Part shown: one piece after another, positions 37,870 through 43,029 of the stretch | Layout: each line of letters begins with the position of its first letter | Position numbering within the stretch: position 1 is the stretch's first letter | NCBI RefSeq assembly: GCF_009812055.1 | Contig: NZ_WQNH01000002.1 | Span: 186,001 to 250,000, forward strand | Source: Chelativorans xinjiangensis | Lineage (GTDB): Bacteria > Pseudomonadota > Alphaproteobacteria > Rhizobiales > Rhizobiaceae | Length of the DNA: 64,000 nucleotides | Direction of reading: 5' to 3' | Program-made: the position numbers and the translations under genes | Notes under the pieces: model-generated | The model's database searches: none | The model's input: only the letters and a program-made list of their open reading frames with translations | What the model was told of the DNA's origin: nothing

Positions 37870-37987
37870 CACTGCAATACCGGACAAATCAAGTCAACAA
37901 ATTAGCCCGCCGGAGGCAAGGCACGCCAGCAAGCCTGGATTTCAGGGCGAGCCAGCATCAGGCCGCGTGAACATCAGGGGTAAAGAG

Positions 37988-40153
37988 ATGAAGGGGCTAC
38001 TGGCTCGACACAGGACGGCGACGCTCGGCGGGGCGGCTGTTATGACCGTTCTTTCAATGCATGGTGCTGCGGCACAACAGGCCGCCGACAACGCGATCGG
38101 CGTCACCGCGCTGCAGCGGCTGGTGGTGGGCGCGGGCGTCGAGAAGGTGGCGATCGACACGCCGCAATCGGTGACCGTGGTCGACCAAGAGGACATCGAC
38201 GAGGAGCAGCCCATGACCGTGGGCGAGATGCTGAAGCGCGTGCCGGGCGTCAACACCTCCGGTTCCGACCGCCTCTTCGGCCAGACATTCAACATCCGCG
38301 GCATCGGCGCGCCCGAATCGGCCAATGAGGAAGGCCGCATCATCGTCACCGTCGACGGGGCGACGAAATATTACGAGCAATACCGAATGGGCGGCTTCTT
38401 CTCCGAGCCGGAGCTTTACAAGCGGGTGGAGGTGCTGCGCGGTCCCGCCTCCTCCACGCTCTACGGCTCGGGCGCGCTGGGCGGCGTCATCCGGTTCGAG
38501 ACCAAGGACGCCTCCGACTTCATCGCCGACGGCCAGAACGGCGCCCTGCGCCTGAAGAGCAGCTACAACTCCAACAAGGACGGCTGGCTCGGCTCCGTCA
38601 TCCTCGCCCAGCGCATGGGCGAGAACGCCGAGTTCCTGCTCACCGGCAACTATCGCCGCGCCGATTCTTATGAAACCGGCGACGGCAGCATCGTTCCCAG
38701 CTCCGATTTCGAGGCCTGGTCGGGCCTCGCCAAGGGCACGTTCAAGGTCGGCGACGAGGGAACGCTGCGGCTTTCCTACCAGCAGTGGGATTCGGACGCG
38801 GACGACCAGGACTACGCGCAGGTGGGCGGATCCGTCTCCGGCGGCACGGTGTCGGGTTTCGGCACGGTCGACCGCCACGTGATCGACAAGACGGCCGTCG
38901 TCTCTTATGAAAACCCGTTCTCGGACAACGACTGGCTCGACCTGAAGCTGTCGGCCTCCTTCTCCGACACGACTGTGGAGCAGAGGGATGCCTCCGGCAT
39001 TCCGCCCTTCGTCACCTGCGCCACCAGCGCTCTCTTCTGCGACACCGACTACGGTTACCAGACCTGGCAGTTCAACGCCGAGAATACCAGCGAGTGGCAC
39101 GGCGAGGGCTGGGAAAACTACCTCACCTACGGCTGGCAGACCGCCTATCAGATCCGCAGCGCCGAGGCGGTGGACCTCACGGGCACGCCGGCGGGCATCA
39201 CCTTCCACCCCGAGGGCGAGGACCTGAAGTCGGGCGTGTTCGTCCAGAACGAGTTCGTCTGGAACGAGCGGCTGACCCTCATCCCCGGCATGCGCATCGA
39301 CTGGCACCGGCTGTCGCCCGACGATTCGACCGGCCTCGGCGAGGCGGAGGAAGACTTCGCCTTCTCGCCCAAGATCGCGGCGCACTACCGCTTCAACGAC
39401 ACTTTCGCCATCTTCGGCTCCATCGCGCATACCGAGCGCTTTCCGACGATCGACGAAGTGTTCTCGACCGCCGGCTCGCGCACGGCCTATCTGCCGAGCT
39501 ATGACCTTAAGAAGGAGCGCTCGAACAATTTCGAGGCGGGCTTCGCCGTTTCCGGTTACGATCTGGCGCAGCCGGGCGACAGCCTGCAGATCAAGACGAC
39601 CGGCTTCTACAACCGCGTCAACGACCTCATCGACACCAACCCGGCGCTCGATGGGCAGACGGGCTTCGTCCCGGTGCCGGGCTATGTGAACATCGAAAGC
39701 GCCGAAATCTACGGCTTCGAGGTCGAGGCAGCCTACGACGCCGACCACGTCTTCGCCGAAGCGGGCTACTCCTATGTGGTCGGCAAGGACCGGGACACGG
39801 GCGACTATCTGACCACCATCGCCCCGCACGAACTGTCCCTGACGCTCGGCGGCAAATTGCCCCAGCACGACCTGCGCTTCGGCTGGAGGACGCGCATCGT
39901 GGCCGCACCACAGGACCGGGCGCGGCGCTCGTCGGAGGCCAATTGGACCGAAAGCTCGCGCCGCTTCGCCAACTCCTTCGACGTCCACGACGTCTTCCTG
40001 ACCTGGAAGCCGGACGACGGGAAGTTTGCCGGCTGGGAGGCGGAGGTCGGCGTCGATAACATCTTCGACAAACAGTACAAGGAGTTCCTCCACAACGATG
40101 CCGCCAAGGGCCGGACCTTCAAGGTCTCGCTGGCCAAGCAGTTCGGGTGGTGA
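37988..40153 (+). CDS. TonB-dependent heme/hemoglobin outer-membrane receptor
   Basis: A 721-aa receptor. Signal peptide to AAAQQ; TonB-box-like segment TALQRLVVGAG; plug domain with SVTVVDQEDIDEEQPMTVGE, LKRVPGVNTSGSDRLFGQTF and NIRGIG, VEVLRGPASSTLYGSGALGG. The barrel follows, with FGSIAHTERFPTIDEVFST (the FRAP/heme-receptor-like loop) and a C-terminal KVSLAKQFGW ending in the Trp typical of porin-like barrels. Imports heme with the TonB-ExbBD system encoded downstream. Start ATG 37,988; GTG 37,967 is unlikely. Confidence 0.93.
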   Translation: MKGLLARHRTATLGGAAVMTVLSMHGAAAQQAADNAIGVTALQRLVVGAGVEKVAIDTPQSVTVVDQEDIDEEQPMTVGEMLKRVPGVNTSGSDRLFGQTFNIRGIGAPESANEEGRIIVTVDGATKYYEQYRMGGFFSEPELYKRVEVLRGPASSTLYGSGALGGVIRFETKDASDFIADGQNGALRLKSSYNSNKDGWLGSVILAQRMGENAEFLLTGNYRRADSYETGDGSIVPSSDFEAWSGLAKGTFKVGDEGTLRLSYQQWDSDADDQDYAQVGGSVSGGTVSGFGTVDRHVIDKTAVVSYENPFSDNDWLDLKLSASFSDTTVEQRDASGIPPFVTCATSALFCDTDYGYQTWQFNAENTSEWHGEGWENYLTYGWQTAYQIRSAEAVDLTGTPAGITFHPEGEDLKSGVFVQNEFVWNERLTLIPGMRIDWHRLSPDDSTGLGEAEEDFAFSPKIAAHYRFNDTFAIFGSIAHTERFPTIDEVFSTAGSRTAYLPSYDLKKERSNNFEAGFAVSGYDLAQPGDSLQIKTTGFYNRVNDLIDTNPALDGQTGFVPVPGYVNIESAEIYGFEVEAAYDADHVFAEAGYSYVVGKDRDTGDYLTTIAPHELSLTLGGKLPQHDLRFGWRTRIVAAPQDRARRSSEANWTESSRRFANSFDVHDVFLTWKPDDGKFAGWEAEVGVDNIFDKQYKEFLHNDAAKGRTFKVSLAKQFGW

Positions 40154-40155
40154 TC

Positions 40156-40590
40156 ATGGGGCGTGCTGCACGGATATCTTCGAGCCTGGCGATGGCGCTT
40201 CTTTTGACGGCGGGCGCCCTTACCGCCGGCGCCCAGGAAGGCGGCGAGCCGCCTTCCCTCTCCCTCGAGCTCAACGGGGCGGAGGCGACGGAGCGCGGCT
40301 GCCGGCTGACCTTCGTCGCCGCCAACCGGCTGGGTGAGGACATCGACCGGGCCGCCTACGAGGTGGCGCTGTTCGGCACGGACGGGCTGGTCAAGCGCCT
40401 GACGGTGCTCGACTTCAAGGACCTGCCCGACGGCCAGACCAAGGTGCGCCAGTTCGACCTTCCCGACATCGACTGCGAAGGGCTCGGCCGCGTCCTTATC
40501 AACGGGGCGACGGCCTGCGAGGGCGGCGAGAACGCCTGTATGGACGCACTCAAGACCGAAACGCGCGGCAGCGTCGCCTTCGGCACCTGA
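40156..40590 (+). CDS. Exported protein of the heme locus (144 aa)
   Basis: Signal peptide MGRAARISSSLAMALLLTAG ... AGA, then a beta-rich domain: LSLELNGAEATERGCRLTFV, AAYEVALFGTDGLVKRLTVL and DLPDGQTKVRQFDLPDIDCE. Four Cys (GCRL, DCEG, ACEG, ACMD) may form two disulfides. Such Tat/Sec-exported proteins occur between the heme receptor and exbB in several Rhizobiales; I know no demonstrated function. The ATG lies 3 nt after the receptor stop. Confidence 0.75.
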   Translation: MGRAARISSSLAMALLLTAGALTAGAQEGGEPPSLSLELNGAEATERGCRLTFVAANRLGEDIDRAAYEVALFGTDGLVKRLTVLDFKDLPDGQTKVRQFDLPDIDCEGLGRVLINGATACEGGENACMDALKTETRGSVAFGT

Positions 40591-40633: not shown

Positions 40634-41335
40634 ATGCCCGCCGGACTGTTCGATACCATCGCCTCCTTCCTGACGCTGGGCGGCCCCGTGGTCGCCCTCT
40701 TAATCGCCCTGTCGGTCTTCGCGCTGGCGCTCATCCTTCTGAAGCTCGTGCAATTCTGGCGCGAGCGCGTCGGCCGGCACGGCCGCGCCGAGCGCGCGCT
40801 CCACGCCTGGTTCCACGACGGCTACGGCGAGGCGCGCGGCCACCTTGAAGGCGACCGCTCGCCGGCGGGCAGCGCGCTTGCCGCCTGCATGCGCCTTGCC
40901 GCCCTCAGGAACGTGCCGAAAGCCGAGATCGAGGACGATGTGGGCCGCATCGCGCTGACCCGCCTGCACGACCTGCAGCGCGGCTTCCGGGCGCTCGACG
41001 CCATCGCCCAGGTGGCGCCGCTGCTCGGCCTGTTCGGCACGGTGCTCGGCATGATCGAGGCCTTCCGCCAGCTCCAGGAGGCGGGCAACGCGGTCGACCC
41101 GTCGCTTTTGGCCGGCGGCATCTGGGTGGCGCTGCTCACCACGGCGACGGGCCTTGCCGTCGCCATGCCCGTCTCGCTGGTGCTCACCTGGTTCGAGACG
41201 CGGCTGGAAAACGAGCGCGTGGCGATCGAGACCATGACCGGCGCGGTGCTTTCGCACGGCGTTGAAAGCCGCGGGCGGGAGCGGGCGGCAGACGGAGCGC
41301 TGGATGCGGTCGCGGGGGTCGGCCATGCGCATTGA
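40634..41335 (+). CDS. exbB: ExbB (MotA/TolQ/ExbB proton channel family)
   Basis: A 233-aa inner-membrane protein with three TM helices: FLTLGGPVVALLIALSVFAL (N-terminal), AQVAPLLGLFGTVLGMIEAF and LLAGGIWVALLTTATGLAVA. The latter two match the ExbB pentamer pore helices (GLLGTVxGMI; ALxTTxxGL). With ExbD it feeds proton-motive force to TonB for heme receptor cycling. Overlaps exbD by 11 bp. Confidence 0.94.
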   Translation: MPAGLFDTIASFLTLGGPVVALLIALSVFALALILLKLVQFWRERVGRHGRAERALHAWFHDGYGEARGHLEGDRSPAGSALAACMRLAALRNVPKAEIEDDVGRIALTRLHDLQRGFRALDAIAQVAPLLGLFGTVLGMIEAFRQLQEAGNAVDPSLLAGGIWVALLTTATGLAVAMPVSLVLTWFETRLENERVAIETMTGAVLSHGVESRGRERAADGALDAVAGVGHAH

Positions 41336-41708
41336 CCTTGCCGCCGCCCGCCGCCGCCCGCTGCCGCTGACGCCGCTGATCGACGTCATCTTCCTGCTCC
41401 TGCTCTTTTTCATGCTGTCCTCCACCTTCGTGCGCTTCGCAGAGGTGGAGGTGACCGGCGGGGCAGCCTCCGCCGGCACGGCCGCCGAGGCGCCGGACGT
41501 GCTGATCCGCCTCGACGGCGGCGATTGGCAGGTGAACGGCGTTTCCGCAGGCGCCGACGAGGCGGTGACCGAACTGAAACGTTTGCAGGAACGAGGTGCC
41601 GCACGCGCCGTTCTCCTGGTGCGCGGCGAGGTGACCTCACAGGAGCTCGTCACGGCGATCGAACGCATCCGAGGCGAGACGACCCTTGACCTTACCGTCG
41701 CGAGGTGA
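41325..41708 (+). CDS. exbD: ExbD (canonical, membrane Asp present)
   Basis: A 127-aa biopolymer-transport protein: one N-terminal TM helix (LTPLIDVIFLLLLFFMLSST) with the essential Asp20, followed by a periplasmic ferredoxin-like domain (APDVLIRLDGGDWQVNGVSA; AVLLVRGEVTSQELVTAIER). Partner of ExbB in the heme locus. Its stop is overlapped by the next exbD-like gene. Confidence 0.93.
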   Translation: MRIDLAAARRRPLPLTPLIDVIFLLLLFFMLSSTFVRFAEVEVTGGAASAGTAAEAPDVLIRLDGGDWQVNGVSAGADEAVTELKRLQERGAARAVLLVRGEVTSQELVTAIERIRGETTLDLTVAR

Positions 41709-41713
41709 ATGCC

Positions 41714-42118
41714 ATGCTGCGTCTTTCCCGTCCCCTGCCCGCCCGCCGGCGCGAAAGCACGATCGCGCTGATCAACGTCGTGTTCCTGATGCTGATCTTC
41801 TTCCTGGTCGCCGGCACCCTGACGCCGCCGCTCGAGCGCGATGTCGACCTGATCTCGACGGCGACGGCCGAACACGCCGAGCCCCCGGACGCGCTTTTCG
41901 TGACGCGCGAGGGCGAATTGCGCGCCCATGGGCAGGCGACGGACGCGGCAAGCTATGTGGATGCGCTCAAGGCGGAGGGCGCGGCGGACGGCGCCCTCGA
42001 GGTGAAGATGGCGGCCGACCGCGAACTGCCGGCGACCAGGCTGATCGAGATCGTCGGCGCCCTGCGGCAGGCCGGCGCCGGCAAGATCAGCATCGTCACG
42101 GAGCGGACGGCCGAATGA
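41714..42118 (+). CDS. Second ExbD-like protein, membrane Asp replaced by Asn
   Basis: A 134-aa ExbD homologue: TIALINVVFLMLIFFLVAGT in the TM helix, where the family Asp is Asn21 (codon AAC). The periplasmic domain is ordinary (PPDALFVTREGELRAHGQAT; EVKMAADRELPATRLIEIVG). GAGGTGA lies 7 nt before ATG 41,714; a GTG at 41,705 overlaps the exbD stop (GTGA). Immediately follows canonical exbD, so hetero-dimer formation with it is likely. Asn cannot relay protons as Asp does, suggesting a structural or regulatory subunit. Confidence 0.85.
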   Translation: MLRLSRPLPARRRESTIALINVVFLMLIFFLVAGTLTPPLERDVDLISTATAEHAEPPDALFVTREGELRAHGQATDAASYVDALKAEGAADGALEVKMAADRELPATRLIEIVGALRQAGAGKISIVTERTAE

Positions 42119-43029
42119 AGGGCAACGCGTGGAAATGGGGCCTGGCGCTCGGCCTTTCCGGCGTGATCCATGCCGGCGCGGCGGTCTTCATGCTGCCGCG
42201 CGAGCCGGAGGTGGAGATTGCCGGGGGATCGAGTATCGAGATCGCCATGGCGGGCAACGCCTTTGCCGATCTTTCGGCGGCAGGAACGCCGGCCGAGATG
42301 GTGGAGCCCGTGACCGAGGCGCCGGTGGAGGCCACACCGGTCGAGCCCACTGAGACGACCGCGGCCGAAGCACCGGTCGTAACGGCCGTTCCTCCGACCG
42401 AGACCGAAGCGCCGGCCGAGGCCGAGGCGACGCCCGATAGGGAGCCGCCGGAGGCTGAACCGTCTGAGCCGGAGGCGGCCGAGATCGAGCCCGCCGAGCC
42501 CGAGGAGACGGTGACGGCAATGGTGAATGTCCCGCGCCCGACGCCGCGCCCCGACTACGAGCCGCCGAAGGAGACGAGGCAGGCCGCGGTGCAGCCGCCG
42601 CCGGTGCGGCGACAGGCGCAAAGGTCCGCCGGTTCCGGCGGGCGCGACAGCCGGGACGCAAGGCGCGGCTCCTCAGAGGACGGGCAGAGCGCCAGGGCGA
42701 ACAGCGGCCGGACGGCCGCCCGCGCCACGGCGATCGGCAACGCCGCCGTCTCGAACTATCCCGGCAAGATCGTCTCCAGGCTGCGCCGGGCGCTGCGTTA
42801 TCCGCGTGCCGCGCAGCGCGAGCGGCTGCGCGGCGAGGTGGGCGTGGCCTTCACCGTCGCCGGCAACGGGGCGGTGAGCGGCATCCGCGTCGTGCGCAGC
42901 TCCGGCTCGCCGATCCTCGACCAGGCGGCGGTCGAAACCGTGCGGCGGGCCGCACCCTTCCCGGCTATTCCCGACGGCGCCGGACGCTCGTCCTGGCCCT
43001 TCACGGTGCCGCTCGCCTTCACCCGCTAA
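42115..43029 (+). CDS. tonB: TonB energy-transducing protein
   Basis: A 304-aa protein with an N-terminal TM anchor (MKGNAWKWGLALGLSGVIHA with His for the TM function), a long Pro/Glu/Thr-rich periplasm-spanning region (about 75-190), and the TonB C-terminal domain (YPGKIVSRLRRALRYPRAAQ; GEVGVAFTVAGNGAVSGIRV; VVRSSGSPILDQAAVETVRR). Links ExbB/D to the heme receptor. ATGA overlap with the second exbD. Confidence 0.92.
   Translation: MKGNAWKWGLALGLSGVIHAGAAVFMLPREPEVEIAGGSSIEIAMAGNAFADLSAAGTPAEMVEPVTEAPVEATPVEPTETTAAEAPVVTAVPPTETEAPAEAEATPDREPPEAEPSEPEAAEIEPAEPEETVTAMVNVPRPTPRPDYEPPKETRQAAVQPPPVRRQAQRSAGSGGRDSRDARRGSSEDGQSARANSGRTAARATAIGNAAVSNYPGKIVSRLRRALRYPRAAQRERLRGEVGVAFTVAGNGAVSGIRVVRSSGSPILDQAAVETVRRAAPFPAIPDGAGRSSWPFTVPLAFTR

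Follow-up and report, generated by a model that had tools for sequence, protein, structure and literature searches.

Can a Ton motor run on a single proton-relaying acid? The question is raised by a 64,000-nucleotide stretch of the Chelativorans xinjiangensis genome (hereafter the window), in which two ExbD genes stand side by side and ExbD2 lacks the membrane-helix Asp of proton-relay ExbD, carrying Asn21 where ExbD1 has Asp20. This Asp has been called strictly conserved (PMC9008036), and published models place the two Asp residues of the inner dimer in different environments and protonate them alternately (PMC12905483, PMC9008036). In models of ExbBD, TolQR and MotAB, the inner acids alternately bind and release protons to give ten power strokes per turn, and Rieu and co-authors, who count a x b ions per turn, describe tenfold symmetry as almost certainly universal (PMC9389320). 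Two differing axle genes of this kind, one without the acid thought essential, are found in many marine and soil bacteria, which thereby offer a natural test of the motor.

The two genes lie in a forward-strand heme-receptor Ton cluster that comprises, in order, the receptor, a small protein, ExbB, ExbD1, ExbD2 and TonB (Table 1). The heme/hemoglobin receptor is the outer-membrane client adjoining the motor genes. The 3' end of ExbB and ExbD1 overlap, ExbD2 starts five bases past the ExbD1 stop, and the ExbD2 stop is overlapped by the TonB start codon. Reading of both relay codons confirmed the Asp/Asn difference on which the original prediction was built. In the plasmid records examined, both genes of the pair are annotated 'biopolymer transporter ExbD', a shared label that hides the difference between them.

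Table 1 Features of the heme-receptor Ton cluster, in window coordinates
Feature	Position	Strand	Evidence and remarks
TonB-dependent heme/hemoglobin receptor	37967..40153	+	Pfam PF00593, PF07715; NCBIfam TIGR01785 432.7 bits (cut-off 316.85)
Small protein	40147..40590	+	Signal-peptide-like N-terminus (by eye), four Cys; candidate extra component
ExbB, pentamer-forming subunit	40634..41335	+	PF01618 93.8 bits
ExbD1, relay Asp20	41325..41708	+	Codon GAC 41382-41384, motif LTPLIDVIF
ExbD2, Asn21 at relay site	41714..42118	+	Codon AAC 41774-41776, motif IALINVVF
TonB	42115..43029	+	PF03544 65.7 bits

Both proteins passed the Pfam cut-off for the ExbD/TolR family (PF02472, 25.4 bits), ExbD1 with 40.8 and ExbD2 with 53.4 bits. 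Neither reached an NCBIfam equivalog cut-off (ExbD1, TIGR02801, 20.4 vs 127.3; ExbD2, best TIGR02803, 30.4 vs 152.95), and the same was true of ExbB (TolQ model, 58.6 vs 221; ExbB model, 50.3 vs 206.2). AlphaFold2 models of ExbD1 (mean pLDDT 79, predicted helix 16-33) and ExbD2 (mean pLDDT 81, predicted helix 16-34) have an ExbD-like topology, in which a single membrane helix is joined by a flexible link to a folded periplasmic domain of strands and two main helices. Foldseek searches with both models returned ExbD and TolR structures as the leading matches; the top PDB match was an ExbD periplasmic domain in each case, 8vgc for ExbD2 (E 1.8e-5) and, more weakly, 8pek for ExbD1 (E 1.2e-3). Both proteins are predicted by these models to keep the ExbD fold. 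A profile of the Asn proteins searched against PDB sequences matched six ExbD sequences and one designed protein, and the two full-length PDB ExbDs that it aligned carry Asp at the relay site.

The conservation of the pair was examined in named genomes with ExbD2 as the query, keeping the best 80 of 386 confirmed matches. In all 80 loci the first gene encodes Asp at the relay site and the second Asn (a D/N pair). The scan used query peptide patterns, of which two (ESTIALIN and VFLMLIFF) lean to Asn. Chelativorans, Nitratireductor, Mesorhizobium, Hoeflea, Stappia, Ruegeria and Jannaschia are among the genera represented. Further pairs were added by 32-row profile searches covering the order, class and phylum, with part of the matches fetched. 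To lessen the bias of an Asn-bearing query, the neutral Pfam model PF02472 was also searched over 80 genomes; by a hand count of positions this set held 69 tandem pairs, 60 of them D/N (including locus L114) and nine with Asp in both genes (D/D), a ratio that is no frequency, since the 80 genomes were partly picked from known matches.

The 235 loci fetched in all contained 205 tandem ExbD pairs, of which 193 were D/N and 12 D/D, while 24 loci held a single ExbD-like frame. Four overlapping loci (L002, L003, L174 and L186) were set aside, as were L153, truncated at a contig end, and L099, half of whose helix is lost, neither of which could be read. The D/N pairs comprise 186 distinct Asn proteins, seven pairs being repeats by identical Asn protein. 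A later set was D/N in 57/57 loci, at least 20 of them repeating proteins already in the first set. Judged by the position of the relay site, the Asp gene comes first and on the same strand in 193/193 D/N pairs, and the Asn site falls 15-35 codons past the ExbD1 stop in 191 of them. A reversed gene order suggested for L161 was rejected, since it came from sorting the genes by where their open frames start.

By the kinship labels of the genomes, the D/N type extends across Alphaproteobacteria and into four families of the same phylum outside that class. The check proposed at the outset concerned Rhizobiales heme loci; the Asn is conserved there, and the range proved wider than that scope, taking in Rhodobacterales and many other families of the class. 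At a threshold of 1e-15 the profile matched 51/199 genomes of the window's own family (Rhizobiaceae) and 59/149 of a second family, with residues read in the 57 loci newly fetched from these matches.

These counts bear directly on the simplest alternative, a strain mutation, drift or a pseudogene. The Asn is encoded by AAC in 119 and AAT in 74 of the 193 pairs (Asp by GAC in 118 and GAT in 75), and the same residue recurs with both codons in 186 distinct proteins. The refutation proposed at the outset, that relatives would have Asp at the site, was put to the test and failed: relatives keep Asn, with the exception of one reversion-like case described below. Nothing was found that speaks for decay of the window copy, and the relatives rule out mutation, sequencing error, drift or a pseudogene there, so that we give this alternative practically no weight; a broken copy does occur elsewhere, in L099. 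That locus (G268:C190) holds a lone ExbD2-like fragment with the first half of its helix replaced by unrelated sequence, and ExbD1 was not found within the 2.6 kb fetched; the fragment may be a remnant or an assembly fault. A candidate natural ExbD1-ExbD2 fusion, L114 (G438:C202), was also set aside. Its single 294-residue frame has no visible second cytoplasm-to-periplasm crossing, and the end of ExbD1 looks frame-shifted on a draft contig, so it is probably an assembly or sequencing frameshift.

Tandem ExbD genes with Asp in both members, sharing one lineage, form a class to which the window pair, with its Asn, does not belong. The tree separates 11 of the 12 D/D pairs from the D/N pairs and assigns them to other ExbD lineages; six of these have a TPML-type helix, four a TTPLV or TTPLI helix, and one is TolR-like. 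The twelfth, L135 (G222:C6), has a second ExbD nested among the Asn proteins and an ExbB of the D/N type, and is the sole Asp found inside the Asn clade. On its placement it reads as a natural Asn-to-Asp reversion, of possible use for comparison. Both Asn codons are one base from an Asp codon, and L135 is the one return to Asp seen; since its D/D pair goes with an ExbB of the D/N type, the Asn is not an absolute requirement.

The Asn rows group in one clade in 110/113 cases in one tree and 119/122 in another, with L125, L160 and L166 falling outside it. Masking the relay column in an alignment of 105 rows gives a free tree that places L181 and L189 elsewhere, and a tree constrained to join the Asn rows and the L135 row is not rejected and has a likelihood above that of the free tree (p-AU 0.94). 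A single origin of the Asn is likely, and one old duplication is the simplest reading. Asp is kept in nine TolR-type proteins of the window's family, including the genome's own.

Every readable Asn ExbD adjoined its Asp partner in the same order. In the draft genome of C. xinjiangensis (5.69 Mb, 99.6% complete), PF02472 matched three proteins, TolR and the window pair; since the remaining match is TolR, the pair are the only Ton-type ExbDs detected in the genome, which also holds five TonB-dependent receptor matches. Co-assembly of ExbD1 with ExbD2 is favoured, indirectly, by this absence of another detected Ton-type ExbD together with the pairing, the gene order and the spacing. The coevolution signal between the two proteins, with a maximum of 0.391 vs 0.226 +/- 0.027 in 30 clade-preserving mispairings, rests on too few independent changes (six column pairs, median p 1) to decide the matter.

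We weighed a reading in which two homodimers form instead, ExbB5-ExbD1(2) being the working motor and ExbD2, alone or rarely mixed in, acting as a proton-dead regulator or brake. By analogy, the tandem exbD2 of Xanthomonas is described as having a link to signalling and as unneeded in the uptake of iron (PMC3551730), which means that some second ExbDs are dispensable; with the partnerless fragment in L099, this cautions against treating all pairs as obligate. The E. coli ExbD D25N variant, whose relay is dead, has been called inactive (PMC11658791). Loss or uncoupling in some lineages would, however, be expected of a brake, whereas the Asn protein keeps its partner throughout the readable loci. 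Among 40 genomes, 35 carry a D/N pair, and 28 of these have only one further PF02472 match, TolR-like by score only. We consider the brake unlikely.

The other components of the cluster were compared across loci. Residues 148, 175, 176 and 181 of ExbB are given in E. coli numbering. Both pore Thr residues (T148 and T181) are kept in the window and in 182/182 D/N loci with ExbB. Trp occupies position 175 in the window and in 177/182 D/N loci, vs 1/33 others; this Trp marks D/N operons and may be explained by simple shared ancestry alone. The adjoining Glu176 site, where Glu is described as essential with unclear function (PMC8599685), is Val in the window and in 80/80 named loci. A coupling of Glu176 loss to the D/N state was nevertheless dropped, because the wider set varies: the 182 D/N loci have Val in 135, Glu in 34 and other residues in 13, and Glu is present in 15 of the 33 others.

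The small protein upstream of ExbB matched no known family in Pfam or NCBIfam. Relatives were detected in 124/186 D/N loci and in 0/11 D/D loci of other lineages, where absences are upper bounds because the flanks differ in length. Four Cys are present in 128/134 detected copies, and the Phaeobacter inhibens gene at the same place is annotated 'hypothetical protein'. It is a possible extra component of the motor or the receptor. For TonB, a crude pattern run on open frames found the SxxxH motif in 90/175, which is uninformative.

We consider it probable that the axle of this Ton motor is an ExbD(D)/ExbD(N) heterodimer within the ExbB pentamer, with one proton site and not two. For this best explanation we infer co-assembly, single-site proton use and a division of labour. 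One ExbD would carry the relay Asp, while in the other Asn would have been fixed at the site from an ancient duplication onwards, with both helices inside the pentamer, so that the two relay sites would be unequal by sequence, vs the two equivalent sites of 5:2 motors. The Asp subunit alone would load and release the proton; each ExbB subunit would then be used once per turn, making the motor chemically 5:1, and a revolution would cost about five protons rather than ten. Applied to a pore that holds a single Asp beside an Asn, the a x b logic itself arrives at five ions per turn, with an asymmetry that is fixed. The Asn would imitate a permanently protonated, neutral Asp and would always fill the partner position. 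The corresponding D22N change in MotB has been described as protonation-mimetic (PMC9389320).

A heterodimer could also work without continuous rotation, as a one-acid switch that moves back and forth and tugs TonB. The loss of one acid removes the tenfold equivalence that underlies the rotary turnstile model (PMC9389320), which is the argument for a switch. Against it, a 5:1 turnstile should be workable in principle, because each pentamer subunit would pass the single site once per turn, and the pore Thr residues of ExbB are unchanged. We regard a switch as improbable and retain the rotating heterodimer.

The two ExbDs differ further in their periplasmic parts. Scored against an ordinary-ExbD profile, this part of the Asn subunit exceeded that of its partner in 135/186 pairs (medians 23.25 vs 15.9 bits), and the Asn subunit may on that account bear more of the contact with TonB or the cell wall. 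In a crystal structure of an ExbD homodimer with a single TonB D-box peptide, the contacts of the two protomers differ (PMC10907165), and unlike protomers could for this reason suit TonB binding. We had considered a strong complementary degeneration of the two ExbDs, and reduced it to a weak point, because column variability is nearly equal despite the profile scores: column entropy in the two periplasmic domains is 2.74 and 2.65 bits, so that a division of labour is weakly indicated. The more ordinary periplasmic domain of ExbD2 would also suit a role outside the pore, as a periplasmic TonB adaptor beside ExbD1 dimers in the pore. An adaptor would have no need of a conserved membrane helix, and that of ExbD2 is conserved nearly as well as that of ExbD1 (mean entropy 1.28 and 1.09 bits, both far below either periplasmic domain). 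We hold the adaptor role to be very unlikely.

The proposed D/N heterodimer can be compared with several described systems. The E. coli and Serratia ExbB5-ExbD2-TonB motor is alike in ExbB family, pore Thr residues, ExbD fold, TonB and a receptor client, whereas the window has two unlike ExbD genes, one without Asp. The operons of Xanthomonas and Sphingobium SYK-6 likewise place two exbD genes after exbB and include tonB, Xanthomonas being likened by operon layout; in SYK-6, unlike the window, Asp25 is described as conserved in both ExbDs (PMC8599685). The Myxococcus AglR-AglQ/S system similarly combines two MotB-like proteins with one MotA-like protein, and whether heterodimers form is stated there to be unknown (PMC9389320), but it is a gliding motor and not a Ton system. 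Campylobacter jejuni MotB D22N represents the same chemical change at the equivalent site (PMC9389320), although as a laboratory mutant and not as a natural arrangement of one acid in two. A full-text search of the open-access literature, a scope that leaves out subscription papers and preprints, found no paper that we could identify as describing such a pairing of Asn-type with Asp-type ExbD.

We lean somewhat towards the wider proposal that these loci encode a widespread natural 5:1:1 Ton motor, in which proton transfer falls to one ExbD while the other stays permanently neutral, that a single-acid axle has been selected across much of Alphaproteobacteria, and that two-site alternation and tenfold symmetry are not universal. 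If true, this would break the expectation in the literature that 5:2 motors are tenfold and use ten ions. A conserved one-acid motor would show that a single relay suffices, and a D/N motor would fix an asymmetry that structures catch only as a snapshot. The number of protons per cycle could be tested by one N-to-D or D-to-N change. The pair had been put forward as a system ready to hand for testing rotary against alternating models; this is a fair proposal, with the qualification that what the pair mainly tests is the need for both protomers to cycle protons alternately.

The genome contains five MotA/ExbB-family matches, one beside TolR and one in the window cluster. On the reverse strand of the window, at 1698-2782, another MotA/ExbB-family protein (2246-2782, PF01618 27 bits), with weak ZorA-like matches only, is followed by an N-terminally hydrophobic protein whose hydrophobic stretch holds an Asp (FTDFLFLALL); the two may form a further ion-driven motor pair. 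In Phaeobacter inhibens strain P72, plasmid pP72_b (L236), which is typed as conjugative, also carries a heme-type Ton operon of the D/N kind beside heme transport genes.
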